The notes under the pieces were generated by a model. That model did not search any database. It was not told the DNA's origin and saw nothing but the letters and a program-made list of their open reading frames with translations. A stretch of DNA of 64,000 nt, from positions 1 to 64,000 of the forward strand of contig JAIOYV010000001.1 in assembly GCA_021740905.1 (NCBI GenBank), read 5' to 3'. The DNA is from Bacteroidales bacterium. GTDB lineage: Bacteria; Bacteroidota; Bacteroidia; Bacteroidales; M50B96. Positions 1,667 through 52,095 of this stretch are shown in pieces. Position numbers and translations under genes: made by a program. The stretch's first letter is position 1; each line of letters starts with the position of its first letter.

Positions 1667-1757
1667 TACGTTAATCCGAAAAACCCCAGCGTTTATACAT
1701 TCAACCCCAGCGTTTATACATTTAACTCATATCACCATTCCTGTCGCCGTACTTTTA
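1667..1757 (+). promoter_or_regulatory. Promoter with three LytTR-type direct repeats
   Basis: Three direct repeats have their GTT cores at 1670, 1691 and 1712, exactly 21 bp apart. The first, TACGTTAAT, fits the published LytTR half-site pattern [TA][AC][CA]GTTN[AG][TG] completely; the others (AGCGTTTAT) miss one position. A Bacteroidota-type -7 box, TACTTTTA, starts at 1750, 38 nt after the last GTT. No good -33 TTTG is visible, which fits an activator-dependent promoter. The predicted transcript would begin about 25 nt before the esterase ATG at 1788. Confidence 0.7.
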
Positions 1758-1787: not shown

Positions 1788-3080
1788 ATGAAAAGATTTA
1801 CAATTATTATGATAATTCTTCTATCAGGAAATTATCTTTTTGGTCAGATGACCAAGATCGACACTTCCTTTTTTAGCCAGGCTTTAGGCGAGGAAAAAAT
1901 GGTGGATGTATTGCTCCCTCCCGGGTATTTTACAAATAGCAATATTTATTATCCTGTTATTTATTACCTGCATGGCTGGGGTGGCGACCAAAATACCGTA
2001 AACGAAATGATCTCCATAACAGGAGGGTTGATCAGTAGCGGTACCATTGATGAAGTAATTATTGTTGGGGCCGACAATAGTCCTGAGCCTTTCAATGGAT
2101 CAATGTATGTGAATTCGGTAACTTGGGGAAACTATGAGGATTATATGGTCAATGATCTCGTAACCTGGGTTGAAACATCATTTCGGACAGTTCCGCAAAA
2201 AAAGTATAGAGCATTAATTGGACAATCCATGGGGGCTTATGGGGCATTCAGGTATGGGATATTACACAAGGAGAAATTTAGGGCTTTAGTAGCTCATGCC
2301 GGTGTGTTAACCTTTGATAAGGATATATATATCAATACTTCCAGACAAAATGTACTACAAGAAAGTCAACCTGGTCCGCCATACACATATTCTTTCTCAA
2401 CCGGAGGTTTCACAGCAGGAACATTTCTGTTTTGCGGAGCCTTTTCGCCAAACCCCAACAGCACACAATACTATATTAATCCGCAAATAGTAGATTTCCC
2501 TTATGATGAAAATGGTGATTACATCGATTCGGTGTACGCAAAATTTCAGCAAAATGATATTCTTGGAAATTTCATCCACCAATTGTCAGCTGAAGATAGC
2601 GTAGGAATATTTTTTGGTTGTGGAACAGCCGACGGATATTTGGTATATCCTGCACATCTCGCAATGAAAGACACACTCGATACGCTTGGAATTCCTTATG
2701 AGTATTATTCTCACAATGGTGGTCATGCATGGCCAAATGGGTTTAAAGAAAATGGCTTGGTTTTCCTTGATTCCATTATGGGGCCACCAATCTTATCTCT
2801 TGAAGAAGAAGTAAATTGTCAGTTTGAATTTTCAGTTTACCCCAATCCTTTTGAAAATACGGTTACTTTAAAATTCAAAAGACCACTATCCAAAGATGAT
2901 GGTATCAGAATTTTTAACCTGACAGGAAATGTAGTAAAAATGATTCAGCTTTTTTCATATAAAAGCAAATCTGAAATAATGCTAAATATGGAAGAATTCC
3001 CTTCCGGTATATATTTCATCAGTTTGCACAGCATGGAAGGAATCATAACCAAAAAAATAATAAAGGTGGCGGGGCGGTAA
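1788..3080 (+). CDS. Secreted esterase D-like alpha/beta hydrolase with T9SS sorting domain
   Basis: The 430-residue protein starts with a signal peptide (MKRFTIIMIILLSG, cleavage after about residue 20). I chose ATG 1788 because the upstream TTG extension lacks a signal and runs through the promoter repeats. The body is a putative-esterase (PF00756-like) fold: oxyanion motif LHGWGGD near residue 61, nucleophile GQSMG with Ser147, and the catalytic-His motif NGGHAWPNG near residue 320. The last 80 residues form a T9SS type A sorting domain with a YPNPF start and a KKIIKVAGR end. The substrate is unknown; feruloyl or acetyl-sugar esters are typical for the family. It heads the plus-strand surface cluster, directly behind the LytTR-box promoter, with an LRR gene 63 nt downstream. 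Confidence 0.88.
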   Translation: MKRFTIIMIILLSGNYLFGQMTKIDTSFFSQALGEEKMVDVLLPPGYFTNSNIYYPVIYYLHGWGGDQNTVNEMISITGGLISSGTIDEVIIVGADNSPEPFNGSMYVNSVTWGNYEDYMVNDLVTWVETSFRTVPQKKYRALIGQSMGAYGAFRYGILHKEKFRALVAHAGVLTFDKDIYINTSRQNVLQESQPGPPYTYSFSTGGFTAGTFLFCGAFSPNPNSTQYYINPQIVDFPYDENGDYIDSVYAKFQQNDILGNFIHQLSAEDSVGIFFGCGTADGYLVYPAHLAMKDTLDTLGIPYEYYSHNGGHAWPNGFKENGLVFLDSIMGPPILSLEEEVNCQFEFSVYPNPFENTVTLKFKRPLSKDDGIRIFNLTGNVVKMIQLFSYKSKSEIMLNMEEFPSGIYFISLHSMEGIITKKIIKVAGR

Positions 3081-3143: not shown

Positions 3144-4484
3144 ATGAAAAGAATACTACTGATTTTTGTATTGGGAATGATGCTTCAATCATTCTCGTAT
3201 GGGCAAAGCTGCCTGCCAAACGGCATCCATTTTGGCAACCAGGCTGAGATTGACAATTTCCCCTTAAATTATCCGGGATGTACCATAATTGAAGGAGATG
3301 TAGGAATCTCTGAAGTTGGGGGTATAATTACCAATCTGGACAGCTTGATTGTTTTAACAGAAATTCATGGAGCGCTAAGGATTGGAGGAGTTGCAGCTAT
3401 GTCATGGCCTTTGGAGAATTTAACCAGCTTAAATGGTTTAAACAATCTAACATCTATTGATTCAACACTGTTTATCGGTACAACCAAATTATCAAGTTTA
3501 AATGGATTAGAACAGCTTACAGCAGTTGGGGGCAATCTATTTATTGGTTCAGAAGGTTGGATCAATGCGCATAATCCATATTTAAAGGATATCAGTGCGT
3601 TAAGCAACCTTTCAAGTATTGAGGGTAGTTTATTTATAGAGTATAATGACTCTTTAGTTACCTTAACTGGGCTTGAAGGGCTAAATACAGTTGGAGGAGA
3701 TGTAATTATAGGAAGAAATAATTCACTTTTTTCTCTTGATGGCCTCGATAACCTAACCACTATAATGGGAGGGTTGTATATTGGTACTGAAGGTATATTT
3801 TCTCTACCCAACCCTTCACTTGTTAACATAGCCGGCCTTAATGGCCTATCTTCAATTGGTGGTGGATTATTTATAACAAACAATGACTCTTTAATAAGTT
3901 TAACAGGTTTAGAGGGTCTTACTAATATTACAGGAGATTTAGTTATCGGTGATAATTACAGTCTAATAAGTTTGACAGGTTTAAACAACCTAAGCGATAT
4001 TGGAGGATATTTGAGTATTGGAGGAAACAATGTAATAACAAGTCTCACAGGTTTGGAGAACCTGTCTTCTATTGGAAATGATTTATATATTAACGATAAT
4101 CCATTATTATCTACTTGCGCAATATCCGGTATCTGTGATTATTTGGATATTCCAAATGGAACAATTTACATAAATAACAATGCTACCGGCTGCAATAGCG
4201 AACAAGAAGTCGATTCTATCTGCGGCACTCTTATTATAGAAGAAGTCGATTTGTTAGATGGTTTTAAAATCACCCCCAATCCAGCAAATACCTTCATCGA
4301 AATAACAAACGAACAAAACCTAAAAATTACCCAGGTAAACATTTACAACCAGCTTGGGCAGTTGCTGATAAAAAGAGATAACACATATTCACCTATCGAT
4401 ATTTCAATACTCAGCACCGGAATTTATATTGTTGAAATAGTTGCCGATAGAATCAAGGTTCGAAAGAAATTGATAGTGAATTAA
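3144..4484 (+). CDS. Secreted leucine-rich-repeat (L-domain-like) surface protein, T9SS
   Basis: The 446-residue protein has a signal peptide ending at YGQ (residue 21), then an N-cap CLPNGIHFG...YPGC. About ten repeats follow, of the form SLTGLxNLxxIGGxLxIxxN, typical of receptor-L-domain-like repeats in Bacteroidota. A cysteine-rich cap (STCAISGICDYL ... ATGCN ... DSIC) closes the repeat stack. A T9SS sorting domain ending KKLIVN follows. The N-terminal 20 residues are nearly identical to those of the LRR protein at 47996-50506. No catalytic motif is present, so a binding or adhesion role at the cell surface is inferred. It is probably co-transcribed with the esterase before it and the phosphoesterase after it. 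Confidence 0.85.
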   Translation: MKRILLIFVLGMMLQSFSYGQSCLPNGIHFGNQAEIDNFPLNYPGCTIIEGDVGISEVGGIITNLDSLIVLTEIHGALRIGGVAAMSWPLENLTSLNGLNNLTSIDSTLFIGTTKLSSLNGLEQLTAVGGNLFIGSEGWINAHNPYLKDISALSNLSSIEGSLFIEYNDSLVTLTGLEGLNTVGGDVIIGRNNSLFSLDGLDNLTTIMGGLYIGTEGIFSLPNPSLVNIAGLNGLSSIGGGLFITNNDSLISLTGLEGLTNITGDLVIGDNYSLISLTGLNNLSDIGGYLSIGGNNVITSLTGLENLSSIGNDLYINDNPLLSTCAISGICDYLDIPNGTIYINNNATGCNSEQEVDSICGTLIIEEVDLLDGFKITPNPANTFIEITNEQNLKITQVNIYNQLGQLLIKRDNTYSPIDISILSTGIYIVEIVADRIKVRKKLIVN

Positions 4485-4573: not shown

Positions 4574-6343
4574 ATGAAACAGAAATTTTTACTTCTTACC
4601 TTATCAATAACCTTTTTCAATTTAATAATTTTCGGGCAAATTCAGATTGACATTCCTGCACCGGAGTCGAATCAGATTAATTCGACGGTCTCCCAAAAAT
4701 CGGATTTTCGCAAAGAACCCTATTTGCTATTTGAAGGGATCAATACACAAATGCGGTTTCTCTGGCAACTTTCCATATCCGATACATGTGAAATATTTTG
4801 GGGTACAGACAGTACATGCAGCCTGGGAAATACAATCACACAGGAATATGGCATCGATCACCAGCACAGTTATACCATTACGGGATTAACAACAGGTACA
4901 AAATACCATTATCAGGTTGTATATAATGTCGATACGATCCGGGCTTCTTTTTTTACGGCACCCGCCGGGAATGAAGAAAATATTAAGTTTTTTGTGTATG
5001 GTGATACCCGGTCTGATATCGTAAATCACGACCTCAATTCCCAGCTAATGATTGGAGATTATCAGGCTGATTCGTCCTATCAATCGCTTACCTTGTTTAC
5101 CGGCGATCATGTCGATTATGGAGCTGATGAATCAAGCTGGGACAATACTTTTTTCACACACAATGCCCCAAATGTCCGTAAACGAATGGCTGAAGTGCCC
5201 TTTGTCCCTTGTTTGGGAAACCATGAGATGTACCAACAGAATTTTAATATTGACCATAGCACATCGGTTTTTGGCAAATACTTCCCATTTCCTTATGAAG
5301 AACGTCGCTACTGGTCGTTTGATTACGGCCCCATGCATGTTGCAATCCTGGATCAATATCCTGACTATTACCAGTTGTTGCCACTCGAAGGTTATCTCGA
5401 TACTGCACAATTGTTATGGCTAAAGGAAGATTTGGCTAACACAACAAAACCGTGGAAAGTGATTGTTTTGCACGAACCTGGTTGGTCTTGCGAAGGTTCT
5501 TCATCAACATATGCTCATCCCAATAATCCGGATGTTCAGGACTCCCTTCAACCCATACTGGAAGAGTATGGTGTTCAAATTGTTTTTGCTGCCCACAATC
5601 ATTATTATGCCCGGGCATGTAAAAATGGGATCTATCACATAACCACTGCCGGTGGCGGTGCCCCACTTTATGAGATCGAAGAGGAATTCCCAAATGTTAT
5701 GAACACCTTTAAGGTACATCATTATTGCAAAGTTGCCATTGAGGATGATACCATGACTGTAACTGCCGTTAAACCAAATGGAGAAGTGATAGATGAATTT
5801 CAAATAAATCAAAACAACAGACCTGAGCATTTATTAGGTTTCCTTGACAAAGATTCAGTACTAGGTAATATAAGTGATGTAAATATAAGTGGGAGTGGAC
5901 AATCTACAAACCCTGATAGTGTAGGCTATTATGGTTTGGAGTTGGCAACCGGTTTTCAAGACGTTTTATTTCAACTTGAAGGTTATTATCCTATAGAAAA
6001 AAATATTGAGATCATTGAGGGAACAGAAACACAACTAGATGACACATTAATCGCAATCTCAGGGGGAATTGATGATCCTTTTAATAATGAGGCACAAAAC
6101 ACTGAACAAATAATAATCTCACCTAATCCGGCTACAGAATATGTTAATATAACGGCAAACATCAGTAGCCATCCAATCGAACTCTATATTTACAATCCAA
6201 TCGGTATATGTATCCAAAAGGAAAGATTTGCGACAGGTAGTCGAGAATTGGTTTTGAAGATGTCTGATTATACATCCGGAATATATTTCATCACCTTGCA
6301 AAGCGGGTCGGGCAGGGTGACTAAGAAGTTGGTCATAAATTAA
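4574..6343 (+). CDS. Secreted purple-acid-phosphatase-like metallophosphoesterase, T9SS
   Basis: 589 residues with a signal peptide ending near FGQ (residue 22). A fibronectin III-like PAP N-domain (about 50-135) precedes a calcineurin-type phosphoesterase domain (about 140-400). Metal-site motifs are GDTRSD, GDHVDYG, GNHEMY, VLHEPGW and AAHNHYYAR. The first motif has Arg where many relatives have His, as in some PAP-like enzymes. A small beta-sandwich, probably carboxypeptidase-regulatory-like (about 425-495), precedes the T9SS sorting domain, which ends KKLVIN. It probably hydrolyses phosphomonoesters or diesters outside the cell. The last 93 nt of the gene and its 3' flank are nearly identical to those of the unrelated serine hydrolase at 50692. 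Confidence 0.87.
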   Translation: MKQKFLLLTLSITFFNLIIFGQIQIDIPAPESNQINSTVSQKSDFRKEPYLLFEGINTQMRFLWQLSISDTCEIFWGTDSTCSLGNTITQEYGIDHQHSYTITGLTTGTKYHYQVVYNVDTIRASFFTAPAGNEENIKFFVYGDTRSDIVNHDLNSQLMIGDYQADSSYQSLTLFTGDHVDYGADESSWDNTFFTHNAPNVRKRMAEVPFVPCLGNHEMYQQNFNIDHSTSVFGKYFPFPYEERRYWSFDYGPMHVAILDQYPDYYQLLPLEGYLDTAQLLWLKEDLANTTKPWKVIVLHEPGWSCEGSSSTYAHPNNPDVQDSLQPILEEYGVQIVFAAHNHYYARACKNGIYHITTAGGGAPLYEIEEEFPNVMNTFKVHHYCKVAIEDDTMTVTAVKPNGEVIDEFQINQNNRPEHLLGFLDKDSVLGNISDVNISGSGQSTNPDSVGYYGLELATGFQDVLFQLEGYYPIEKNIEIIEGTETQLDDTLIAISGGIDDPFNNEAQNTEQIIISPNPATEYVNITANISSHPIELYIYNPIGICIQKERFATGSRELVLKMSDYTSGIYFITLQSGSGRVTKKLVIN

Positions 6344-6513: not shown

Positions 6514-6598
6514 ATTTACACAAAGGTAATATTCCAATTAATTTTAACTAAATCTCGTCTTTATGGCTGAAATTTGTATCTTCGTGCAAAACGACTTC

Positions 6599-7342
6599 AT
6601 GATCAAAGCCATAATTATTCCAGGCAGGCAGCAGGAGCAAGACCAGGTTGCCGCAATTGTCGGGGCATGTTGCCCAAACCTCAGCGTGGTGGCACATGCC
6701 GAAGGTGTGCGGGACGGTGTTGGACTGATCAACGAACACAACCCCGACCTGGTAATTCTCGACACCAAACTAAAAGACGGCAGCGGTTTCGACCTCGTAC
6801 GTCATTTCGATAAACCCGATTTCAAGATCATCTTCCTGTCGGCCTCCATGGATTATGCCATTAAGGCCATCAAGTTCTCTGCGGTGGACTACATCCTCAA
6901 ACCCATCGATGAGGAAGAGCTTACCCTGGCCATAAACAAGGCTTCGGATATAATCCGTTTCGAGGAAAACCTACAGCAAAAAGCCCTGGGCGGAAGTATT
7001 GAGAATCTCGCCAAATCGCAACGCCTGGTGTTAAAAACCAGCGAACAGTTACATGTGGTGAGCATCGAAGATATTATCCGTATTGAGGCCGATGGCAATT
7101 ATTCTACTTTTCACTTGCAGGATGGCAAAAAGATACTTGTTTCCAAATCTATGAAAGAATACGAGGAAGAATTGCTCGAACACGGCTTTCACCGGGTACA
7201 TAAGTCGCATATTTTCAATATCCACAAAATGAGCCACCTCGACAAAGCCGACGGGGGTTTCGTGGTGATGATCGATGGGGCAAGGATACCGGTGGCTTCA
7301 CGCAAAAGGGATATGCTGTTGCAGTTGTTCGAGGAGATATAA
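6599..7342 (+). CDS. LytTR response regulator with altered acidic pocket
   Basis: 247 residues from ATG 6599, chosen because MIKAIIIPG aligns with the start of the paralogous regulator at 47364 (MLNAIIIDD). A receiver domain (1-120) carries the phospho-acceptor Asp55 in PDLVILDTKLKD and the Lys in ILKPID. The Asp pair that binds Mg2+ in normal receivers is replaced by Pro8-Gly9. A LytTR DNA-binding domain (about 145-245) contains the EADGNYSTF and GFHRVHKSHI segments. No kinase gene is adjacent. It lies between two LytTR-box promoters (1667 and 7645), so control of these surface genes is a likely role, perhaps without normal phosphorylation. Confidence 0.88.
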   Translation: MIKAIIIPGRQQEQDQVAAIVGACCPNLSVVAHAEGVRDGVGLINEHNPDLVILDTKLKDGSGFDLVRHFDKPDFKIIFLSASMDYAIKAIKFSAVDYILKPIDEEELTLAINKASDIIRFEENLQQKALGGSIENLAKSQRLVLKTSEQLHVVSIEDIIRIEADGNYSTFHLQDGKKILVSKSMKEYEEELLEHGFHRVHKSHIFNIHKMSHLDKADGGFVVMIDGARIPVASRKRDMLLQLFEEI

Positions 7343-7644: not shown

Positions 7645-7735
7645 TACGTTCGTTAACTCAACCCCAGCGTTCGTTAACTCAACCCCAGCGTTTATACATT
7701 TAACTCATATCTCCTGTTCGATGTTTGTAATTTTG
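7645..7735 (+). promoter_or_regulatory. Promoter with three LytTR-type direct repeats
   Basis: GTT cores lie at 7648, 7669 and 7690, again exactly 21 bp apart (TACGTTCGT, AGCGTTCGT, AGCGTTTAT). The first fits the LytTR half-site pattern fully. A perfect TAnnTTTG box, TAATTTTG, begins at 7728, 38 nt after the last GTT, the same distance as at 1750 and at 55107. It drives the frameshifted beta-helix gene at 7908 after a leader of about 165 nt. Confidence 0.72.
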
Positions 7736-7907: not shown

Positions 7908-10660
7908 ATGAGGAAAATTACAATTGTACTGATAAGCCTGTTGTGCGGCTTTGTATTGAACCAAAATGCACAACCTGTTTTGGATGGGACAAAATCAGGT
8001 CCCCAAATAGAATTCTTAGGGATGGTGTCGCAAGGCGAAGGAACGGCAGGTTGGTACGCCGATGGCACAGGCCCCGAACTTGCCGGAATTGGCCACATGG
8101 TTCCGGGTCCCGGTTTCACCAACATTTACTACTATGGGGCATCGCACGACTATATCACCAATAACCCCAACCATTCAGCATTTCATTTTATGGCTGGAAT
8201 GACAGGCTTCCCCGAGTTTGGTCAAGCCCTCAACAATAGTGGCTATGTTATTAGTCAAGTGAGGGTAAAGTTTGGTTTAAACTCAGTAAAGGATGATATT
8301 GAGGGAGAGGACTGGTTTACCATCGACAATTTTCACTACGCGAACTTTTACGATTGCTACTTTACCATCGAGTTAAACGGGGAACCAATGTTCTCAGGTT
8401 TTTTCAATTACTCAAACACCTTTGTCGATACCACAGGGTCGAATTTTATATTCAGGTCATCCTACTCCCCACTATTGAATATTTCGTCGAACAGTTCGGC
8501 CGGAGTGCAAGCTGTAGCCCAGGCATTTTTAAACGACCTTGCCGGACGTGAGATCAAAATTACTTTTGAAAACACGCCAGGATCCGCCTTTTCAGGAAAC
8601 GGAAGGACCGGGGCTTACTACAACATCATCAATGGTGTATTGGAAGTTGGAAATCCTGAGATTCCCTGGAAAGGCATGGTTGCCGACCATGAAGGATTTG
8701 CCGGTTGGGATGCCGATGGCACAGGTCCGGAGGAATTGGGCAACGGACATGGAAACAATTACTATTATGGAGCTTCGCTCGATTACGATGACATTGATCC
8801 TGACTCAACAGCTTGTTTGGGACATTTTATTACGGGGTCAACAGGATTCATTAATACACTATTGCAGTTAGAATATCGTGGATTCGAGATTGGTGACCTA
8901 CGTCTAAAAATGGGTTTGACCAGTCTGGGGCCGGATATCCAGGGGAAGGATTGGAATCAAACGGCTTTTTCATCGTGGAGCAACTCATACAATACCGTTG
9001 GAACTATTGAATTATCAGGCGAACCCATTCTCTACTTATTGATGGACACAAACACGACTAGCTTCAGCCAGTCGGTTGGTCATTTTTGGTCAAATGCAAA
9101 ATCTTCTGCAGTATATGATATTTCTCAAAATGCCTCCTTGATGCGCAATTTGTCGCCAAATCCTTTATCAGGGATTTAGGTAACCATTATGTTAGTTTAA
9201 ACACAAATAAATTTACAAATGCTGCGGGAAGTGCGTTTAATTCGAATGGCCGGAATGGCTCGTTTTTTAACATAGACGAAGGTATACTAAAAGCAAGTTG
9301 CCGTCAAGCTACCTTCATTCCCGCCGGAGAAGTAGCCGGAACATGGATAATGGAAGGTTCGCCCTACTATATTGATGGACACATCAGCATTGCAGATGGA
9401 CAAACCCTCACCATCGAACCGGGCGTAATGGTTGGTATTCGTGGCCCCTGGCATTTTTCCGTACAGGGCTGTGTGCTTGCCGAAGGAACTGTAACTGATA
9501 CCATCCTTTTTACACGCTCGAACCCCAACATACAATGGGATGGTTTCGATTATTATGAAACTCCCGCCACAAACGATTCTTCAAAATTTGACTATTGCAT
9601 TTTCGAACATGGCTACGGTTATGGCGGTTCGAATATGCCGACAAGTAATGCTATGAATTGCGGAGGTATATTTTATCTGAGGTTTATGGACAAACTCGAA
9701 ATAAAGAATTCTGAATTTAGATATAATGAAAGTTCTAAACAAGGATACTATCCGCCGTCGGGAGGAGCTATGTTGCTTTGGAATTCCGATCCTTTTATCC
9801 AAAAATGTAAATTCTATGAAAACAATGCGTTATATGGGGGAGCCATGATGATGTACAAATATTCAAACCCGGTAATCTCGAATTGCTTGTTTTACGACAA
9901 CCAGGCAGACAAAGGCGGGGCTTTATGCTTCTTTGAAAATGGAAATGGAATAATAATTAACAATACCCTGGCCGACAATTCAGCCAATCTGGGCGGAGCT
10001 TTGTATTTTACTGAAAATTCAAACCCTAAAATAATCAATACCCTAATTTGGGGCAATACAGCCCAAACCGATGGCAACCAGGTTCATTTATCTATCCAGA
10101 ACAGCCCTGGTTTTTACTATTGCGATATAGAAGGGGGCCAGCTTGGTTTTAGTGGCACAGCTTCTTCTGGGGATTATCTTTTTAATATTGATGCTGACCC
10201 CCTGTTTTGGGGCGACACAGTTCCGTATAGAATAATTGGCGGATCGCCCTGCATCGAGGCTGGGACTCCTGATTCTTCGGCCTACTTCTACCTCCAATAT
10301 CTTCCAGCTTGTTGTTTTAAAGAATGTGACAGGATTCTTGACGATAAAATTGATATTGGTGCTTATGAGCAATCCATTTTGGAAATTGATGAACAGGTTA
10401 AACCGGCTCAATCTATTATTGCTTATCCCAACCCATTTTCTTCAACTATCTATATCAATTTTAAGATAAGTGAAGCAACCGATGTTTCCATCCAAATCTA
10501 CAACAACCTGGGCCAAATGGTTGATGTGCTGAAAAAAGGAAAAATGCAACCTGGCAAATACAGCACAAAATGGAACGCCGAAGTGCAACCACAAGGAATA
10601 TATTTTATCCACTTGCAAAGCGGAGATGAAATTTTCACACAGAAAATTATAAAGCAATAG
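7908..10660 (+). pseudogene. T9SS-exported beta-helix protein, one gene split by a frameshift
   Basis: Two open frames (7908-9179 and an N-terminally extended 9350-10660) make one product of about 917 residues. The first starts with a signal peptide (MRKITIVLISLLCG...NAQ) and holds two copies of a domain marked GWYADGTGPE and GWDADGTGPE. The second copy breaks off at about 9138-9140. Its continuation lies in the -1 frame: VAKSFIRDL ... GSAFNSNGRNG aligns with VAQAFLNDL ... GSAFSGNGRTG of the first copy. That frame then runs open through a right-handed beta-helix (NNALYGGAMMMY, NQADKGGALCFF, NSANLGGALYF) to a T9SS sorting domain ending KIIKQ. A missing base near 9138 explains it, either a real mutation or a read error. 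The gene follows a LytTR-box promoter. Confidence 0.85.
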
Positions 10661-11089: not shown

Positions 11090-13000
11090 ATGAAAAAATT
11101 ATTTTTATTTGGACTAATCCTAATAATCTTTCAATTATCATCATTCGGACAAGCACAAACTCTCAAAACAGACATATACTTGCACACGCAATCGCAAGTT
11201 AACAGTTTTCCAACTACCTATTCAAACAATCCAACAATCTATGCCAATATATATATTGGAGGTGTCTCGGTCATTAATCTCGATAGCCTGATCAGCATTA
11301 AAGAATTATTTGGGAGCTTAAGTATCAAAGAAGCCAATTCGTTGAAAAATCTAAGTGGACTTGACAGTCTTTCAATAATCTGGGAGGATTTGGTGATTCG
11401 ATATAATGACTCTTTACAAAACCTGACAGGACTTGGGAACCTCGATTCAATTGGAGGAACACTAAATATCACGCAAAATGATACTTTGATTAGCCTCACA
11501 GGCATGGAGAACCTTAAAAAGATAGGAAGTTATTTATCTATCAGCAATATGCCCAATCTCACAAGCTTGCAGGGTCTCAATAGTCTTTCTCTTGTCAATG
11601 GATCAATTTATATTCATAGTTTACAAGCAATAACTACTCTTGAGGGACTTAACAGCCTTACTTCTGTATGCGGAGGATTTTCGCTCAACTACAATAATGC
11701 CCTGCAAAACTTATCAGGATTAGAGAATCTAAGTTATCTGGATGGGGATCTGAAAATTAGCAGTAATGCAGTATTAACCAGCCTTTCGGTTTTAATGAAT
11801 ATTTCATACATTACAGGTGATCTAGCTATTTTGTCCAATGGATCTATAGCCAATTTATCGGGTCTGGATAATATTGACTCCATTGGAGGTTCCTTAAGCA
11901 TAATGGGTATGGGCTTACTAACCAACCTGGATGGGCTTGACAGCTTAAAAAACATTGGGGGCGCATTATATATTTCGAATAACTTTTCACTAACTGACAT
12001 ATCGGCTATAAGCAATATTAATCCATCAAGCATAACTAATCTAGGCATATCTGATAACACCATATTGTCAACCTGCAATGTTCAAAATATTTGTGATTAT
12101 CTGGCCAGTCCAAATGGGGTCGTTTCAATATTTAAAAATGCCCCGGGTTGCAAAAATCCTCATGAAGTTGCCAATTCATGTGGTTTGGCAATGTCGTGCC
12201 TGCCCTATGGCGATTATCATTTCTACTCACAAAACGATGTCGATTCGTTTACCATCTATTACCCCAATTGTCACAACCTAAAAGGGAATGTGTACATTAG
12301 GCCTAATTCTATTTGGAATTTAGACAGCCTTTATACAATTACATCCATAAGCAAAACCCTGGACATTTGGAGTGTGCCGGTTTGGGACTGGAGTGGGCTT
12401 AACAATCTTAATTCAATTGGTAACGATCTTGTTCTTTATACCTGCAATTCTATTCATAACTGCAATAATTTTCAGAATCTAACCTCATTGGGAGGTACAC
12501 TTTTAATCTATGGTTGTAACAATTTATCCAGCTTGTCGGGTCTTCAAAACATCGACCCTATCACCCTGGGCGGACTGCGATTAATTGATAACCCAGAATT
12601 ATCATATTGCCAAGTGCAAAGTATTTGTGAATATCTTGGAAGCTCTGGAGCCTATGTCGAAATACACGACAATGCCTCGGGCTGCAACAGCCAGGTAGAG
12701 ATACAAACATTATGTCCTTCGGTATCGATTAACGACTTGTATCAGCAAACGGAATTTTCAATATCTCCCAATCCCGCAGGCAACCATGCCATCCTTAGGT
12801 TTAATTCGGCGTATCGTGAAAAAGTTTCGATCGAAGCGTACAGCGCAAGCGGGGTTTGCCATATCAGCAAGCAGTTTGTGAGCCAAAATCGGGGAGGGCA
12901 GGAAATCGTATTAGATTTAAGTAAGCTTACGTCCGGGATGTATTTCGTCAAACTACAAACCGCGAAAGAAGTGGTCGTCCGGAAAATTGTGAAACAGTAA
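11090..13000 (+). CDS. Two-block leucine-rich-repeat surface protein, T9SS
   Basis: 636 residues with a signal peptide (MKKLFLFGLILIIF ... SFGQ). The first LRR block (about 45-330) uses GLxxLxxIGGxLxIxxN repeats and closes with a cysteine cap (STCNVQNICDYL ... APGCK ... NSCG). A second block then restarts with CLPYGDYHFYSQNDVDSF, which resembles the N-terminus of the other LRR proteins. It has fewer repeats and its own cap (SYCQVQSICEYL ... ASGCN ... TLC). A T9SS sorting domain ending RKIVKQ follows. The architecture is an internal duplication of the single-block form at 3144. A surface binding role is inferred. Confidence 0.85.
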   Translation: MKKLFLFGLILIIFQLSSFGQAQTLKTDIYLHTQSQVNSFPTTYSNNPTIYANIYIGGVSVINLDSLISIKELFGSLSIKEANSLKNLSGLDSLSIIWEDLVIRYNDSLQNLTGLGNLDSIGGTLNITQNDTLISLTGMENLKKIGSYLSISNMPNLTSLQGLNSLSLVNGSIYIHSLQAITTLEGLNSLTSVCGGFSLNYNNALQNLSGLENLSYLDGDLKISSNAVLTSLSVLMNISYITGDLAILSNGSIANLSGLDNIDSIGGSLSIMGMGLLTNLDGLDSLKNIGGALYISNNFSLTDISAISNINPSSITNLGISDNTILSTCNVQNICDYLASPNGVVSIFKNAPGCKNPHEVANSCGLAMSCLPYGDYHFYSQNDVDSFTIYYPNCHNLKGNVYIRPNSIWNLDSLYTITSISKTLDIWSVPVWDWSGLNNLNSIGNDLVLYTCNSIHNCNNFQNLTSLGGTLLIYGCNNLSSLSGLQNIDPITLGGLRLIDNPELSYCQVQSICEYLGSSGAYVEIHDNASGCNSQVEIQTLCPSVSINDLYQQTEFSISPNPAGNHAILRFNSAYREKVSIEAYSASGVCHISKQFVSQNRGGQEIVLDLSKLTSGMYFVKLQTAKEVVVRKIVKQ

Positions 13001-44398: not shown

Positions 44399-46480
44399 CT
44401 ACAATTTTCCCGGCAACCGAAAAACCACTTTTGTCCCGACGCCTATCCCCGCTTCATCTTTCAGGTCGATTATCTCCAGACTGATTTTCTGTTTCAGTTT
44501 TTTGTTTATCACCGCAATCCGTTCCCTGGTAATCTGTGTGGCAAGCGATTTATAGTTATTGTCCAGTTTTATCGAAGTTTCCTGCGCTCGGGCCCTGCCA
44601 ATGCCATCGTCTTCGATGGTATACATGATGTTTCCTTTTTCATGATAAATACTGATCTGAATATGTCCTGTAGTTTCTTTGTTTCTGAATCCATGTTCGA
44701 TGGCATTTTCGATAAAGGGCTGTGCCAGCATGGGAGGGATATGAATTTCTGTCGGGTCAAGTGTTTCATCCATCGATATGGAATAATCAAACTTTTCGGG
44801 GAAACGGATTTTCTGCAAGGACAGATAGTTTTCGATGGTGCTGATCTCTTGCTCCAGGGGAATAAATTCATCTACCGAACTATCGAGGATGTTGCGCATC
44901 AACTTTGAAAAACGCGCCAGGTAGGTACTGGCCTTTTCGGGTTCTTCGTTGATGATGGAGTTTTGGATGCTGGCCAACGAGTTGAATATGAAATGGGGGT
45001 TCATTTGCGAACGGAGGAGCTTTTGCTGCAACTGCATGTTTTTTTGACTGGACTTTATCCTATTCTGCCGGATGTAAAGAATACCAATCAGAAGGATTAG
45101 GATTAAAAACCCAAGAAAACTAAAGAGCAATAAACGGGTTTGATGAGTTTTTCTTTTCTGGATCTCATTCTCCCGGGCCAATAATTCAATCTTTTGCTCC
45201 TTATTTTCAGATTCATATTTTAATTTTAGCTCCATCAATTCTGTCCTGTTTTGAAACTTTAGAATTTCGTCTTTGATGGTCAATGTTGAATCTATAATTT
45301 TCAGAGCTTTGTCTTGATGGTTAGTAATTTGGTACAACTCCATAAGGTTTGTAAGCCCTTCCAAAATCCCAAGTTTTCCATGAAATTTTCTATAGGCAGT
45401 TGGCGAGGACATCCAGGTTTCATCGGTAACATCAATAAATTTGTTGAAATGTGCATCATTAAAGAGTAGACCTGTTGAATCGATTATATATCCAAGCCTG
45501 GTCGCTTCTTCGTAATTTGAAATTGATTTTTCGTATTCTCCTCTTGATTTATAAAACATCCCCAGTTTGATACAAGCTTTCATTTCGCCCCGGGTGTAAT
45601 GTATTGCTTTGCATTGTTGGTAGCACTTGTTTATAAATATCATTGCGCTGTCGGGTTGATTGGCAGCTAAATAATAGTCTCCAATTTTGAGAAAAACATT
45701 AGCATTAAGTGCCATCTCTTCCACAAAATTAAAATCCATAAGAGCAAGCGAACTTTTGTACAATTCAATTGCCTTATCCATTTCACGCCATTGAAAATAT
45801 ATATCGCCCATTGAATAGGCAACAATAAGTTTTTCAAGTCTCGGAGGTTCCATGTTAGAGGTATACCTGAGAAATCGATTGAAATAATCCAAAGCTACCT
45901 GATAGTTTCCAATTCGAAAAGCTCCACCCCCTATTATTACGAGCATGGAAGCGGCCATATTCTTATTCCCAACTTCATCATGGTACTTCCGTGCTTCTTC
46001 ATAGTGATTGATAATTTGTTGCTCATCGGCTTTTGAAAAATAATAGATATAGCCCATGCGCTCGTAGATCAACATGCTTAACTCAGGTATGTTTAAGCTT
46101 TGGGCTATCCCATAAGCCTGTGTTTGATATTGGAATGCTTTGATAAATTCGCTTTGCAAAAAGTAATAGAACCCTATATTCGAGAGGGCAAAAGCTTTTC
46201 CGACAGGATATGAAAATTCTTCAGAAGCTGCTAAAGTAGCCTGTGACAAGCTGAATGACCTCTCAGGATCATAATTGACAATTATTGCGGCTATTTGATT
46301 TTCAATGTTAATTTTATTTGTACCTGTGGAATTAGCCAGTTCTTTTTCCAGGCGAACAACCTCTATACTATCGCGGAGGTAGAACATTTGGGAATAGGCG
46401 ATTCCATGAGACAGCAAAATAATAAAGAGGAATGGAATAATTTTACGCAATGCCAATTTTGGTTGATCGATCAATATCAT
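44399..46480 (-). CDS. LytS-type sensor histidine kinase with TPR sensor region
   Basis: 693 residues. A signal segment (about 12-30) leads to a periplasmic TPR-like region (about 55-400), a coiled coil, a membrane segment (LLLFSFLGFLILILLIGI, about 445-465) and a His_kinase domain with His496 in LRSQMNPHFIFNSLASI. The HATPase boxes are FIENAIEHGFRN and DDGIGRARA. The partner regulator gene starts upstream on the same strand, with 122 nt between them. Together they form a typical LytS/LytTR pair, the likely controller of the LytTR-box promoters. Confidence 0.92.
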   Translation of the reverse strand: MILIDQPKLALRKIIPFLFIILLSHGIAYSQMFYLRDSIEVVRLEKELANSTGTNKINIENQIAAIIVNYDPERSFSLSQATLAASEEFSYPVGKAFALSNIGFYYFLQSEFIKAFQYQTQAYGIAQSLNIPELSMLIYERMGYIYYFSKADEQQIINHYEEARKYHDEVGNKNMAASMLVIIGGGAFRIGNYQVALDYFNRFLRYTSNMEPPRLEKLIVAYSMGDIYFQWREMDKAIELYKSSLALMDFNFVEEMALNANVFLKIGDYYLAANQPDSAMIFINKCYQQCKAIHYTRGEMKACIKLGMFYKSRGEYEKSISNYEEATRLGYIIDSTGLLFNDAHFNKFIDVTDETWMSSPTAYRKFHGKLGILEGLTNLMELYQITNHQDKALKIIDSTLTIKDEILKFQNRTELMELKLKYESENKEQKIELLARENEIQKRKTHQTRLLLFSFLGFLILILLIGILYIRQNRIKSSQKNMQLQQKLLRSQMNPHFIFNSLASIQNSIINEEPEKASTYLARFSKLMRNILDSSVDEFIPLEQEISTIENYLSLQKIRFPEKFDYSISMDETLDPTEIHIPPMLAQPFIENAIEHGFRNKETTGHIQISIYHEKGNIMYTIEDDGIGRARAQETSIKLDNNYKSLATQITRERIAVINKKLKQKISLEIIDLKDEAGIGVGTKVVFRLPGKL

Positions 46481-46602: not shown

Positions 46603-47364
46603 CTAATTAGAAGCCGCCAGTTTCTCGAACATCTCCAGCAGATCATCACGTTTGCGCGAGGCCACCGGGATTTTAATTTCGTTTTCCAAAACCACATGCC
46701 CCCCTTCGGCTTTCTCGAAACGGTTGATGTGCCGCATGTTTATGAGGAAAGATTTATGCACACGGAAAAAACCTGTTTCGCTCAACATATCGTCGTATTC
46801 TTTTAGCGTGCACGACACCATAATCTTATTCCCGTTCAGCATGTTCACGGAAGTGTATCCCCCCTCCGATTCGCAATAATTAATGTCGCATACTTTTACC
46901 AGATGGATATTATCATACGTTTTCAGGATGATCTTTTTCTTGTTGTTAGAGGCATCTAGTTGTAGATTTTCTTCTAGAGTGTTTAGTTGTGTGTTGAAAT
47001 CCTTTTGGTATAGCTTTTCTGCCCTTTCGGCGGCAGCGCGCAGATCGGCCGGGTCGACAGGTTTTAGGAGATAGTCGATGGCACTGAACTTAAAGGCTTT
47101 GATGGCATATTTGTCGTAAGCCGTAATAAAGATCACCTTAAAATCGACCGGCTCCAATTTTTTAAGCAGGTCGAAACCTGTGCCGTCGTTCATTTTTATA
47201 TCTAACAACACCAGGTCGGGATGGTATTTCCGTATCGTATTTACACCACTTTCTACACTATCGGCAGTTGCAACCAGCTTTAAATTGGGACAAAAGCCAA
47301 CAACCATCTTCTCCAGGGTCTGGCGAATATGAGGTTCATCGTCGATGATAATGGCATTTAACAT
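46603..47364 (-). CDS. LytTR response regulator
   Basis: 253 residues from the internal ATG near 47364, chosen because MLNAIIIDDEP is the normal start of a receiver. The upstream TTG extension of 17 residues is unlikely. The receiver has Asp8-Asp9, acceptor Asp55 (PDLVLLDIKMND) and Lys in LLKPVDP. The LytTR domain (about 150-250) includes YCESEGGYTSV and GFFRVHKSFLIN. It is highly similar to the regulator at 6599 but has an intact acidic pocket. It is co-directional with the surface cluster upstream and with its kinase downstream. Confidence 0.92.
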   Translation of the reverse strand: MLNAIIIDDEPHIRQTLEKMVVGFCPNLKLVATADSVESGVNTIRKYHPDLVLLDIKMNDGTGFDLLKKLEPVDFKVIFITAYDKYAIKAFKFSAIDYLLKPVDPADLRAAAERAEKLYQKDFNTQLNTLEENLQLDASNNKKKIILKTYDNIHLVKVCDINYCESEGGYTSVNMLNGNKIMVSCTLKEYDDMLSETGFFRVHKSFLINMRHINRFEKAEGGHVVLENEIKIPVASRKRDDLLEMFEKLAASN

Positions 47365-47460
47365 GCGGTGTTTTAACTTTCTTTCAAATGTAAGTAATTT
47401 CATAATTCCCCCCAAATTTTTTATTTATTTCAATAACTTTTATTTGCTGAATCTCTTTTT

Positions 47461-47995: not shown

Positions 47996-50506
47996 TCATT
48001 GCCCCGCCACCTTAATTATTTTTTTCGTTACAATTCCATCATCGCTTTGAAATTTGATAAAATACATCCCGGCAGAAAAATCGCCTAAATCCAAAACTAT
48101 TTCATTCATGCCCGACACATTGGTTGTAAACTGCCAGGATTTTACCTTCACGCTATTTACATTGAAAATCTCTATGCTGATTTCTTTATCATGCAATCCC
48201 TCTATGCTGATATATATAGCATCATTAGCTGGATTTGGTGATACCATAAAACGAGGTTCTCTTACTGTTTGCTCTTCTGTTGCGATAAGACATGCAGCTT
48301 CTATCTCCCAAATATCGTTGCAGCCGACTGCATTGCTGTCGATCTGTGCAGGTCCATTATGAAAAATGTAGTTACATACGCTTTGCACGTGACAATGCGA
48401 AAGCAAAGGGTTGTGTTCAATGTGTAAGTCCCCTATAGTAACAGGGTTTATATTCCTAATCCCTTCAATTGAAATCAGCGAATCATTGTTCAATAAGTGA
48501 ATTCCATGTATGGCATTATACCCTCCTGCCAGAATTTCATACCCAACAGATTTCAATGAATCAAGTCCATCTAAAGATTCAAGCGCATCGTTTTGTTGCA
48601 CACACAATATTCCTTCTATTATAGTTAGTTTTTGTAAAGCATCGAGGCTTTTCAGTCTTGGATTACCATCATACCAATCATGACCAATTTTCAAACTACC
48701 ATTCACTTGGCTTAGATTTTCAAGTCCTGAAATATTTATTATTGAATCGTTCCCCCAAATCGAAAGAGAACCTCCAATAAACTTTAGGCTATCTAATCCA
48801 GTCATGTCTTTAAGTCTGGGGTTTTCTGAAATTAACACCGATCCGATAATCGAATCTGTTTTTACAAAACCTTCAAGGCTCACTAAAGAAGAGTTTTCCG
48901 AGATTGACACCGACCCAATTGCAGATAAGTTTACAAATCCTGTTAGGCTATCTAATGAAAAATTATTTACAATGCGAATATTACTACAAGAGATAAGATT
49001 AGGCATATCCGGCAAACTCATTAACAAGGAATCATTGACTATAGAGAAAAATCCTAAAGAATAAATATTATTAAAGTTATCAAGGTTTTGTAACGACGGA
49101 TTATCATTAATATATAAACTTGAGCAATGGTTTAAGTTTGAAAATGCCAAAATTTCTGGAAGTAGAATATTGTTTATAATTTTTAGAGCACCCCAAAAAT
49201 GTGACAAATTCTGAAATCCGCTCAAACTATCCAACATATTGTTTCCTTCAATTCGAGAAGAATTCATGGAAACAAGACTAGAAAAACCATTAATACTTTC
49301 CAGCAAAGGGTTGTCAACAATATTAAAATACCTTAACGAATCGAGATTTTCGAAACCATTGATTGATATCAATGTAAGATTCTCAGAAATAGTTAATTCA
49401 TTGCCTATGGTGGTTAGGTTTTCGGATCCTGTGATAGAGCTCAGTCCATCATTGGCCTCAATAACAAGATAGCCCCCAATATAATTCAGGCTATCAAGTC
49501 CTGATAAATCAGACAAAGTGGTATTTCCACCAATTCTCAGGTACCCGTTAACTGAGTGTAAATTTGAAAGATTAGACAAATCTGTCAAAGATGTATTATT
49601 CATAATTCTTACATCACCGTTAATAATAGTTGTGTTGCCAAAACCTTCAAAGGACAAAAGGCTGGGATTCGATTGGATAATTAAATCTCCACTTACTGTA
49701 TCAATATTATCAACGTTAAAAATATTTTCAAGAACAGGATTTCCCTGAATCATAATGCTTCCGCCAATATGGTTTACATTATCAAGTATATATAAATTTG
49801 ATAATGAGGCATTGTTGCAAATATCTAAACCATAGCCTGATGTTCCATTAATAGTGGTTAAATTTTGCAACCCGGATAAATCAGAAAGGAGGGGATTTGA
49901 ACTAATTGTAAGCTCACCCTCAATTGTAGTTAATCCCCCAAGCGATGATAAATCGGTAAGAACCTGATTGTCACGAATCTCAATATCCCCTCCAACCGAA
50001 ACCAAACTATCCAATCCATTTAGAGATGTTAAGGCATCTAAAATTACGAGTTTTATCCCTCCTGTAATTGAGCTTAAATTATTCAGTCCTGTTAAACTTG
50101 TCAAAACACTGTTTGTGCCTATAGATAATCCAACATTGCCAGTCCCCGTCCCGATGGAGGTTAAATTTTCAAGACCAGTTAAGCTGGAAATGGAGGTGTA
50201 TGAAAGATATAGTCTGCCCCCAATTGTAGTTAAGTTATTTAATCCTGAAAAATTGCTTAGAAGACTGTTTGAGTAAATATTTAATTCACCTCCAATAGCT
50301 GTTAAACAGCTCAACCCATTCAGATTGGAAATGTTTCCTCCAATCCAAACATCACCCTCGATTTCAGTACAACCCGGATAGTTCACCTGAAAACTGTCAA
50401 TTTCCGCTTGTGTACTAAAAGTGATTCCGTTTGGCAAGCATCCTTGCCCATACGAGAAAGATTGAAGCATCATTCCCAATACAAAAATTAGTAGTATTCT
50501 TTTCAT
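47996..50506 (-). CDS. Large leucine-rich-repeat surface protein, T9SS
   Basis: 836 residues. The signal peptide and N-cap (CLPNGITFSTQAEIDSF ... YPGC) are nearly the same as in the 446-residue paralogue at 3144. Some 25 L-domain-like repeats follow, then the cysteine cap (SHCHVQSVCNYI ... AVGCN ... EAAC) and a T9SS sorting domain ending KKIIKVAGQ. It is the last structural gene of the minus-strand cluster before the LytTR/LytS pair. Repeat number, not sequence type, is the main difference from the shorter LRR proteins. Surface binding is inferred. Confidence 0.87.
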   Translation of the reverse strand: MKRILLIFVLGMMLQSFSYGQGCLPNGITFSTQAEIDSFQVNYPGCTEIEGDVWIGGNISNLNGLSCLTAIGGELNIYSNSLLSNFSGLNNLTTIGGRLYLSYTSISSLTGLENLTSIGTGTGNVGLSIGTNSVLTSLTGLNNLSSITGGIKLVILDALTSLNGLDSLVSVGGDIEIRDNQVLTDLSSLGGLTTIEGELTISSNPLLSDLSGLQNLTTINGTSGYGLDICNNASLSNLYILDNVNHIGGSIMIQGNPVLENIFNVDNIDTVSGDLIIQSNPSLLSFEGFGNTTIINGDVRIMNNTSLTDLSNLSNLHSVNGYLRIGGNTTLSDLSGLDSLNYIGGYLVIEANDGLSSITGSENLTTIGNELTISENLTLISINGFENLDSLRYFNIVDNPLLESINGFSSLVSMNSSRIEGNNMLDSLSGFQNLSHFWGALKIINNILLPEILAFSNLNHCSSLYINDNPSLQNLDNFNNIYSLGFFSIVNDSLLMSLPDMPNLISCSNIRIVNNFSLDSLTGFVNLSAIGSVSISENSSLVSLEGFVKTDSIIGSVLISENPRLKDMTGLDSLKFIGGSLSIWGNDSIINISGLENLSQVNGSLKIGHDWYDGNPRLKSLDALQKLTIIEGILCVQQNDALESLDGLDSLKSVGYEILAGGYNAIHGIHLLNNDSLISIEGIRNINPVTIGDLHIEHNPLLSHCHVQSVCNYIFHNGPAQIDSNAVGCNDIWEIEAACLIATEEQTVREPRFMVSPNPANDAIYISIEGLHDKEISIEIFNVNSVKVKSWQFTTNVSGMNEIVLDLGDFSAGMYFIKFQSDDGIVTKKIIKVAGQ

Positions 50507-50676: not shown

Positions 50677-50762
50677 AAAATCAGAATAGCCTTAACTTAT
50701 CACCAACTTCTTAGTCACCCTGCCCGACCCGCTTTGCAAGGTGATGAAATATATTCCGGATG
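50670..50762 (-). repeat. 93-nt 3'-end module shared with the phosphoesterase gene
   Basis: The reverse complement matches 6273-6365 at 91 of 93 positions by eye. It spans the last 24 codons, the stop and the 3' flank of the serine hydrolase gene. Confidence 0.85.
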
Positions 50763-52095
50763 AAAATTCGTTGCAATTGAGTTGATAGGCTCCTGTTTTT
50801 CTCATTCCCAGAGGAATGTGTTTTAAGTCTTGCCCAATAATATTTCTGACAATCAATGATACCTCAGTTCCCTTTTTAAGGTCGAAATGAATGTTTACTA
50901 TGTCTGTGGCCGGATTAGGATAGATATTCATTTCTAAATTGCAGGCTTGGGGGGCTTCTACAATATTAATGTAGTTTAAGGCATAATCGAATAGATATTC
51001 AACTATCGTATCAATATGTTGCTCTGAATTTGTTGTGACAACAACACCGGATTCTTCGTCTTTACAGAAATAATACTCGGCTGCATAACCTCCGCCTCCT
51101 CCATTATGTCCCCAAACAGTCCGACTGCCATAATTCTCTGTTTTGTACATTCCCAATCCATATTTATCCAAATTTGAATTTTGGACGGTTGTCATGGAAT
51201 TAATTGAGGCTAATGATAAAATCGTTTGGTTATTGAAAGATCCATTGTTCAGTAACATGATTACAAAATTGGCCAGTTCCAATGCTGAAGTCCGTAATCC
51301 AATTCCCGGATATGCTGGGTGGCCTCTGTGCGCGTTTGCTGTAAAAGTACCTCCTGCGTAATCGTACCCCACGGCCACACTATCCACATTTAACTCGTTC
51401 AGAAACCATGCAGATGAGTTCATCCCTAAAGGAGTGAGCAAGGAGTCTCTTACATACTGGTGGAAGCTTATGCCGGTTAGAGGTTCTATCAGGTAGCCTA
51501 ACAATGCCATTCCATAATTATCGTAATTATAGCCGGTTCCCGGAACCTGGTTGTAAAAATTGTTCGTGTTGTAAAAATTACCGGTGGCCGAAAGATAATT
51601 TTCCATAAAGTATCCCAAAGACATTGCAGGATCACCATTTACAACAAAGTTGTTGAAGTTCCAGTCGTTAATTGTGGATGTGTGGTTCATCAACATTCTG
51701 GGTGTAATGCTATCGATGCCATTGTGTGGATTGCTAACCTGAAAAGGCAAGAAGTTGTTGATGTTTTCATCCAATCCTACGATTTGTTTGTCGACTAATT
51801 GCATGACACAAGCAGTTGTGATGGACTTGCTAATCGAAAAAACATTGAACAGGGTAGAGTCGCCAACCAGTGTGCTATCCTGGAGGTTCATGTATCCATA
51901 GTTATTATTCCAAATCACCGAACCATCTTTAACAACACATGCCGACAATCCGGGTACATGGAAGTTTTGCATATTAGCAATTATGAAACTGTCCAAATCC
52001 ACCGTGTCAATCGACAAAGCAGAGTTTGATTGACCAGATACCGAAAACACCAGGCCAATACCTAAAATGAGTAAAGTAAATTTTAATGATTTCAT
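50692..52095 (-). CDS. Secreted serine hydrolase (beta-lactamase/DD-peptidase fold), T9SS
   Basis: 467 residues with a signal peptide ending VSGQ (residue 22). The catalytic SxxK is Ser87-Ile-Ser-Lys90 (VFSISKSITTA). The YxN motif is in YNYDNYGMALLGYL and the third motif is HNGGGGGYAAEY, typical of class C beta-lactamase-like esterases (PF00144). The C-terminal sorting domain ends KKLVIS and is almost identical at DNA level to that of the phosphoesterase at 4574. Peptidase, esterase or amidase activity is possible. It is third in the minus-strand surface cluster. Confidence 0.88.
   Translation of the reverse strand: MKSLKFTLLILGIGLVFSVSGQSNSALSIDTVDLDSFIIANMQNFHVPGLSACVVKDGSVIWNNNYGYMNLQDSTLVGDSTLFNVFSISKSITTACVMQLVDKQIVGLDENINNFLPFQVSNPHNGIDSITPRMLMNHTSTINDWNFNNFVVNGDPAMSLGYFMENYLSATGNFYNTNNFYNQVPGTGYNYDNYGMALLGYLIEPLTGISFHQYVRDSLLTPLGMNSSAWFLNELNVDSVAVGYDYAGGTFTANAHRGHPAYPGIGLRTSALELANFVIMLLNNGSFNNQTILSLASINSMTTVQNSNLDKYGLGMYKTENYGSRTVWGHNGGGGGYAAEYYFCKDEESGVVVTTNSEQHIDTIVEYLFDYALNYINIVEAPQACNLEMNIYPNPATDIVNIHFDLKKGTEVSLIVRNIIGQDLKHIPLGMRKTGAYQLNCNEFSSGIYFITLQSGSGRVTKKLVIS

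Follow-up and report, generated by a model that had tools for sequence, protein, structure and literature searches.

Does a 64,000-nucleotide stretch of a Bacteroidales genome (hereafter, the window) carry three promoters of a single LytTR regulon, and if so, what do they control? A sequence-only reading of the window had claimed that GTT cores recur every 21 bp at three places, each series being followed at 38 nt by a TAnnTTTR box. Direct reading of the sequence confirmed this. The cores lie at 1670/1691/1712 (site 1) and 7648/7669/7690 (site 2) on the plus strand, and at 55187/55166/55145 on the minus strand (site 3). At each of the three sites, the last GTT stands 38 nt from a TAnnTTTR box (1750, TACTTTTA; 7728, TAATTTTG; and 55107, minus strand, TACCTTTA). 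A start codon is present downstream of every site, the ATG being located 30, 172, and 37 nt past the box at sites 1, 2, and 3, respectively. Taken as 9-bp direct repeats with a ~21-bp period located just upstream of the −33 place, these elements have the layout of a LytTR operator. According to published descriptions, LytTR sites share no single common consensus (PMC4847170), and LytTR proteins mostly bind two repeats (PMC4847170, PMC2714321). The coordinates of the sites, of the regulators, and of the gene clusters discussed below are collected in Table 1.

The pattern GTT-N18-GTT-N18-GTT-N35-TAnnTTTR was sought in the entire 6.54-Mb genome, as the sequence-only reading had proposed. It occurs three times, at sites 1–3 only, while the reversed form of the same pattern gave no matches in the 6.54 Mb. 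When CGTT cores and GTAnnTTTR were required, three matches were obtained in the window and none in 100 dinucleotide shuffles. The 21-bp unit AACCCCAGCGTTYRTWNAYTYAA, allowed up to two mismatches, matched the genome six times, twice at each of the three sites and nowhere else. From the middle boxes as far as and including the ATG, sites 1 and 3 hardly differ, as if a single promoter had been copied; site 2 has the operator in common with them and diverges downstream of it. Because sites 1 and 3 are near-copies, the three sites are not three independent observations, and the argument for a regulon that can be made from the window alone is weaker than it appears. Of the proposal that identical geometry supports one regulon, the regulon reading is supported by the tests described below, while window geometry is a weak argument for it, since two or more of the three promoters appear to be duplicates. 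Scans for promoters and terminators, which used a σ70 consensus, were uninformative. The leaders of sites 1 and 3 also contain an inverted repeat, ATCTCAT...ATGAGAT (1757–1787, and just above 55062), that ends right before the ATG; no such repeat was seen by eye in the leader of site 2.

Table 1. Features of the window: operator and promoter elements, LytTR regulators and kinase, and gene clusters.
Feature	Positions	Strand	Basis
Site 1, box 1 (TACGTTAAT)	1667..1675	+	sequence; equals the PlnC/PlnD half-site consensus as described in PMC2714321
Site 1, box 2 (AGCGTTTAT)	1688..1696	+	sequence; 21 bp from box 1
Site 1, box 3 (AGCGTTTAT)	1709..1717	+	sequence; 21 bp from box 2
Site 1, CTCAT at −33 place, 19 nt 5' of −7 TA	1726..1730	+	conserved columns outside search pattern; family consensus TTCAT
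Site 1, −7 element GTACTTTTA	1749..1757	+	38 nt past last GTT; spacing as in 32/32 family triplets
Site 2, box 1 (TACGTTCGT)	7645..7653	+	sequence
Site 2, box 2 (AGCGTTCGT)	7666..7674	+	sequence
Site 2, box 3 (AGCGTTTAT)	7687..7695	+	sequence
Site 2, CTCAT at −33 place	7704..7708	+	sequence; family consensus
Site 2, −7 element GTAATTTTG	7727..7735	+	sequence
Site 3, box 1 (AGCGTTAAT)	55182..55190	-	sequence
Site 3, box 2 (GGCGTTCGT)	55161..55169	-	sequence
Site 3, box 3 (AGCGTTTAT)	55140..55148	-	sequence
Site 3, CTCAT at −33 place	55127..55131	-	sequence; family consensus
Site 3, −7 element GTACCTTTA	55100..55108	-	sequence
LytTR response regulator, canonical receiver	46603..47415	-	PF04397, PF00072; relatives adjoin triple sites
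LytTR response regulator, atypical receiver, PGR for DDE	6563..7342	+	PF04397, PF00072; alignment; relatives adjoin triple sites
TPR-type histidine kinase, putative partner	44399..46480	-	PF06580, TPR, HATPase_c
Cluster A first gene: esterase with type IX sorting tail	1788..3080	+	PF00756, PF18962
Cluster A: Recep_L/LRR protein with sorting tail	3144..4484	+	domain search
Cluster A: calcineurin-like phosphoesterase with sorting tail	4574..6343	+	domain search
Cluster B first gene, no Pfam match	7908..9179	+	relatives follow triple sites in other genomes
Cluster B: beta-helix protein with sorting tail	9350..10660	+	domain search
Cluster B: Recep_L/LRR protein with sorting tail	11090..13000	+	domain search
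Cluster C first gene: esterase with sorting tail	53761..55062	-	domain search
Cluster C: esterase with sorting tail	52285..53577	-	domain search
Cluster C: beta-lactamase-family serine hydrolase with sorting tail	50692..52095	-	domain search
Cluster C: Recep_L/LRR protein with sorting tail	47996..50506	-	domain search

Relatives of the three sites were sought in a named collection of one genome per species (84,980 species) with three CGTT cores plus GTAnnTTTR, and at least 80 stretches with at least 83 sites were found. By leave-one-out scoring on the columns left unspecified by the pattern, with a matrix learned from sites that have the 38-nt spacing, 50 of the 83 listed sites and the three sites of the window form one family, with the consensus CGTTCAt.....AAAcCCCgGCGTTCActaA.TaAaCCCCGGCGTTtATacATcTg.TTCATaTTtgCCTTtt.g.tGTtGTA..TTTA. 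The shared columns outside the search pattern include CCCCGG before CGTT and TTCAT 19 nt before TA. Carriers are metagenome-assembled genomes labelled Bacteroidales, Bacteroidetes, Bacteroidia, Marinilabiliales, Lentimicrobium, or Lentimicrobiaceae or, for two of the sites, Chlorobiota. With a matrix derived solely from the 50 foreign sites, the window sites scored 85.2, 84.1, and 75.6; the next non-overlapping place scored −22.7, and the best of five shuffles −19.1.

Raw counts of looser patterns in other genomes were at or below, or hardly above, those of reversed controls. The GTT-only pattern gave 24 matches in 16 of 99 genomes (the window's own included) versus 35 for its reverse and was rejected as too loose for other genomes; by eye, the family members among its matches were three in G000, six in G048, and one of the two in G078. 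These G048 and G078 sites share CGTT cores with the window sites, and in all ten (three from the window, six from G048, one from G078) a G that the pattern did not ask for precedes the TA of the box. A search with one 21-bp unit alone, one mismatch being allowed, was also discarded, as it gave no clear signal outside G000 (several of its six matches in G048 fall inside the sites of that genome). In 393 genomes of the window's order, a two-box scan produced 49 raw matches versus 43 in the reversed control, and exact two-box sites of the family type were present in 13 other genomes from 10 other genera. The exact three-box pattern was found in the window's own genome only, among 395 genomes drawn across the phylum, and that genome has just three sites at this stringency. 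One scan with mismatches yielded 23 matches versus 26 reversed, and another, in genomes that had been chosen for having sites, a clear excess, 40 versus 10. Loose patterns alone fail to beat their reverses; what carries the argument is the shared columns, the geometry, and the linkage. The named records and the genome set overlap (G048 and the record series JAHYJL show the same sites), and are not independent.

The spacing was evaluated without the −7 box by seeking three CGTT cores alone in 15 site-bearing genomes, which returned 89 rows, versus 99 for the reversed pattern. Dropping by eye 37 rows that were low-complexity CGTT heptamer repeats left 52 triplets. Judged by inter-box columns, 32 of the 52 belong to the family, and TAnnTTTR is located at exactly 38 nt in all 32; among the 20 non-family triplets, one of which has no readable downstream DNA, the box is at 38 nt in 2 of 19. 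All but one of the family triplets (the exception, G335:C175) had already been met in scans that required the box, and the informative part of the result is therefore that no family triplet turned up without it. Several contigs of G287 and G335 carry CGTT-rich heptamer repeats that mimic the 21-bp period and inflate loose scans.

The number of boxes was assessed by reading upstream of sites selected for two boxes only (45 distinct exact sites readable, of 49). A third box is present at exactly −21 in 27 of 29 family sites (CGTT in 25, CATT in 2), while CGTT was found at −19, −20, −22, or −23 in none of the 29. Among the 16 non-family two-box sites, CGTT occurs at −21 in three. Three boxes are the rule for the family. 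A fourth box as a rule was rejected, since CGTT at −42 is present in 1 of the 29 family sites. Box 3 of the family is most often GGCGTTTAT (16 of 53 sites), whose CGTT core is shared with TACGTTAAT.

Downstream of the operator, 8 to 9 bp separate the end of the last box from a TTCAT-like element at the −33 place, which differs from the TTTG of the Bacteroidetes −33 consensus. Of 53 family sites, 34 have A and 19 have G as the final base of the −7 element, only A or G having been sought. As described in PMC6847099, σABfr promoters (−33/−7, TTTG/TANNTTTG) have a −7 element of this type, and in the Flavobacterium −7 consensus the final G is nearly invariant; the family is distinguished by TTCAT at the −33 place, by a −7 element that ends in A more often than in G, and by the three-box operator upstream.

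As the sequence-only reading had stated, the window encodes two LytTR regulators, and both contain PF04397 and PF00072. The PF04397 scores are 72.3 bits for 46603–47415 and 59.9 bits for 6563–7342 (the cut-off being 22.6). In alignments, the receiver pocket of the 46603 protein has DDE and the later Asp, whereas that of the 6563 protein keeps the later Asp and has PGR in place of DDE. Relatives of the 6563 type have lost the acidic pair by other changes, and keep the later Asp where it is covered (the L169 protein is cut before it). The best 60 of 115 matches in a PDB search with the 46603 regulator fall on its receiver part. The N-terminus of the kinase at 44399–46480 is hydrophobic, and a single membrane-like stretch lies near residue 450. 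In 21 chosen loci, a TPR kinase directly follows 11 of 20 46603-type genes, and three of the 20 lie at a locus edge, the other neighbours being without annotation.

The genome that contains the window has 14 LytTR matches, and the pairing of regulator and site thus rests on linkage and co-occurrence. LytTR response-regulator genes are present in 19 of 47 foreign family loci (in L151 as a receiver fragment only) compared with 2 of 33 other loci, those two being L141 and L160, where non-family triplets occur. The locus profile used for this count covers receiver and LytTR, and receiver-only matches (L133, L159, L173, L191, L204) were excluded from it. Among the matches listed, a 46603-like gene lies within 15 kb of 30 of 63 sites, with 1.8 expected by random placement; with the window's own genome excluded, the number is 29 of 60, and with the 6563 gene added, 32 of 63 sites have a regulator within 15 kb. 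The 63 sites are all rows (40 + 23) of two scans with up to two mismatches. For the remaining 33, the matches listed include no 46603-like gene within 15 kb, several of the contigs being short. In a tree with all 14 LytTR proteins of the window's genome, the site-linked ones group with 46603, 6563, and three further proteins of that genome (C15a, C15b, and C22), and the proteins of the non-family loci L141 and L160 fall into the same group. Support at the fork of the 46603/6563 group is 90/86, below the starred level, and that of the 6563 group (five rows) is 100/98.

Sites and regulators also co-occur across the order. The regulator profile was run over 393 genomes, with at most six candidates per genome scored among the matches listed. 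An exact family site is present in 10 of 12 genomes other than the window's own with a 46603 match at E 1e-90 or better, versus 3 of 380 others (Fisher p = 9e-16, with a cut that was set after seeing the list and a test that treats related genomes as independent). In the remaining two genomes with close regulators, G331 and G303, one-mismatch sites lie on the regulator contigs, at distances of about 12 and 5 kb, respectively. Where the regulators are more distantly related, most matches had two mismatches and were about as frequent as in the reversed control; two of these genomes, G203 and G211, have one-mismatch sites beside the regulator. Family sites are also present in G349, G265, and G365, where regulator matches are only moderate. 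The earlier suggestion of one LytTR promoter class with three half-sites is thus borne out by uniqueness in the genome, by recurrence in other genera with shared unspecified columns, by the 38-nt spacing in triplets collected without the box, by the third box in sites selected for two, and by linkage to and co-occurrence with LytTR response regulators.

Each site of the window heads a run of same-strand genes, and a Por_Secre_tail is present in 9 of 10 run proteins, the exception being 7908. The cluster A run ends with regulator 6563, and the cluster C run ends with regulator 46603 followed by the TPR kinase 44399; this succession of site, cargo, LytTR regulator, and TPR kinase is repeated elsewhere (for example, in L154, L193, L311, and L312). 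From the spacing of the genes, the runs may be operons. At least 24 of 49 first genes (46 foreign, three own) code for a sorting tail, several being cut by the locus end, and for 4 of 50 foreign family sites no first gene was found. Other domains of the 49 first genes are esterase (8), Recep_L (7), receiver (5), and peptidase C10 (4). Three of the receiver genes are of the LuxR type; the remaining pair consists of the LytTR regulator gene in L193 and, in L151, a fragment of a gene of the LytTR type. The first ATG is located 15–51 nt past the box in 26 of 46 sites. Esterase paralogues were considered as further regulon members and rejected: the search gave 77 genome matches, three of them being the esterases of the window itself, and in almost all of the rest the alignment covers the sorting tail (a match at C133 covers the esterase part).

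We propose that sites 1–3 are probably activator-dependent promoters of one LytTR regulon that drives genes of secreted proteins, many of them type IX substrates. The elements, their fixed geometry and conservation, the gene content, and the LytTR linkage and co-occurrence come directly from computation; from them we infer binding and the identity of the binding regulator, a positive rather than a negative sign of control, phosphorylation, feedback, and the structure of the operons. Each promoter would carry three 9-bp LytTR half-sites with the core CGTT, and since these are in phase at 21 bp, all three would face one side of the DNA. The TTCAT-like element would replace the Bacteroidetes −33 element, with the GTAnnTTTR −7 element at a fixed distance. 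The best candidate for the activator is the LytTR response regulator 46603–47415, which the TPR histidine kinase 44399–46480 probably phosphorylates; the same boxes may also be bound by the paralogue 6563–7342, whose receiver is without the acidic pair. Once bound, the regulators would contact RNA polymerase at promoters whose −33 element is poor, and would activate runs of esterase, LRR, beta-helix, and serine hydrolase genes, many of which code for type IX sorting tails. Regulator and kinase genes are often part of these runs, and positive feedback would result. A further and rather tentative extension is that canonical and atypical (phosphorylation-independent) LytTR regulators share the three-site operator, for instance as a dimer on two boxes with the other protein on the third, giving two inputs, and that modules of site, cargo, regulator, and kinase duplicate as units, forming a family of self-regulated surface-protein cassettes in Bacteroidales. 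Were this extension true, the odd number of boxes would itself be functional, and type IX cargo modules would be switched by two inputs.

Activation of the cargo and of the regulator's own genes appears most likely, repression being its main rival. A LytTR repressor could occupy the same operator by the −33 region and be relieved by a signal. Precedents exist in published accounts: CoxC represses, needs all three repeats, and has an operator that overlaps the −35 element (PMC11347149), and the repeats bound by the activator PlnC are also those of the LytTR repressor PlnD (PMC2714321). In the window, a second, atypical LytTR regulator adjoins site 2. We nevertheless consider repression unlikely, as the boxes stop 8 to 9 bp short of the −33 place with no overlap, as described for activating LRS promoters (PMC6193735), and a non-consensus −33 element suits activation. 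The 6563-type regulator might alternatively be the only protein that binds the boxes, doing so without phosphorylation while the canonical regulator acts elsewhere, and genes of this type do lie beside triple sites in L142, L162, L303, L310, and L320. This arrangement is improbable in view of the 20 occurrences of the 46603 type, against five of the 6563 type, in the 21 chosen loci; close relatives of 46603 also track the sites across the order, a comparison that is one-sided since only the 46603 type was profiled.

Two other explanations dispense with LytTR proteins. GTAnnTTTA might be the −7 element of an alternative sigma factor, with the phased boxes acting as bendable DNA, and the unrequested G in 10 of 10 sites and the final A in 34 of 53 would fit such a promoter. 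LytTR genes are linked to the sites and co-occur with them, and one of the boxes equals a LytTR half-site described in PMC2714321, which makes this explanation highly improbable. Finally, the repeats might be a 21-bp minisatellite or a recently copied promoter with no function of the repeat. Sites 1 and 3 do look like copies, and the units of L156 are near-identical, with a fourth present at least in part. Most of the other family sites, however, have units that differ from one another, with core, phase, number, and −7 distance all constant, and we regard this reading as barely credible.

With the activator-dependent LytTR promoter as the preferred reading, the sites can be compared with known systems, as far as these are described in the respective papers. 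PlnC and PlnD of Lactobacillus plantarum bind 9-bp direct repeats cooperatively, one protein per repeat (PMC2714321). Their promoters share with the window sites 9-bp direct repeats with a 12-bp spacer upstream of the core promoter, a consensus (TACGTTAAT) identical to box 1 of site 1, and two related LytTR regulators with a self-regulated operon (PMC2714321). They differ in having two repeats rather than three, in the −35/−10 promoter of a Firmicute, and in serving a quorum-sensing bacteriocin regulon rather than type IX cargo. In the promoters of LytTR regulatory systems (LRS; HdrRM and BrsRM), the gap between direct repeats is 12 bp in most cases, and the repeats often lie 10 bp upstream of the −35 element, with positive autoregulation (PMC6193735). 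LRS promoters have two repeats, and the partner of the LRS regulator is a membrane inhibitor (PMC6193735), whereas here it would be a histidine kinase; the LRS-type layout, with a gene of an inhibitory membrane protein beside the regulator, was not found at 46603, which is adjoined by the TPR kinase. RcoM1 and CoxC provide the closest precedent for box number, with three direct repeats about two turns apart that are read by a LytTR domain (PMC11347149). Three half-sites instead of two, as suggested, are the rule for the family, while three-repeat LytTR operators as such are not new. The RcoM1/CoxC half-site is TTCNNGCA or TTNNNGCN, with a CoxC spacing of 18–21 bp (PMC11347149); compared with TTNNNGCN, some boxes with the family core CGTT are close on the other strand. 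RcoM1 and CoxC are CO sensors fused to the DNA-binding domain, with no response regulator, and belong to another phylum.

New in the searchable literature is the CGTT-core, strictly 21-bp three-box class, found in several genera at a fixed distance from the Bacteroidetes −7 element together with regulators and type IX cargo. Searches of the literature on LytTR, Bacteroidetes, and type IX secretion, with few subscription journals covered, found no described circuit of three LytTR boxes and type IX cargo among the papers listed, and a Porphyromonas-directed search found nothing on a three-box LytTR system among the matches listed. If the proposed regulon is real, it would constitute a defined two-component circuit for type IX cargo in Bacteroidales, with an operator precise enough for pattern searches and therefore for regulon prediction in uncultured genomes, and with a naturally occurring set of three-site promoters in which the occupation of three repeats by LytTR proteins could be studied.

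Several further observations were made along the way. Triplets of the same geometry with different spacers (CGTTCCCTCAA type) are present in L136, L179, L200, and L190, and L168 and L197 contain same-geometry triplets of a Flavobacteriaceae type, two promoters on one contig; all of these are perhaps operators of other LytTR regulators. In L133, L159, and L204, family sites directly precede genes of 208-aa LuxR-type response regulators, an arrangement that would amount to a regulatory cascade. The end of the 7908 protein falls inside an apparent start of a sorting tail (SPNP), and its relatives in other clusters are 776–990 aa long, and a 900-aa protein of L312 best matches the beta-helix protein of 9350; genes 7908 and 9350 may together make up a single gene or may be genuinely split. 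Elsewhere, the window encodes a large sensor kinase-like protein with a Reg_prop propeller, a Y_Y_Y domain, and HATPase_c (15965–19759, minus strand), an nSTAND1 NTPase with WD40 repeats (26472–29579, minus strand), and, near its end, an IS66-family transposase (61598–63040, plus strand).
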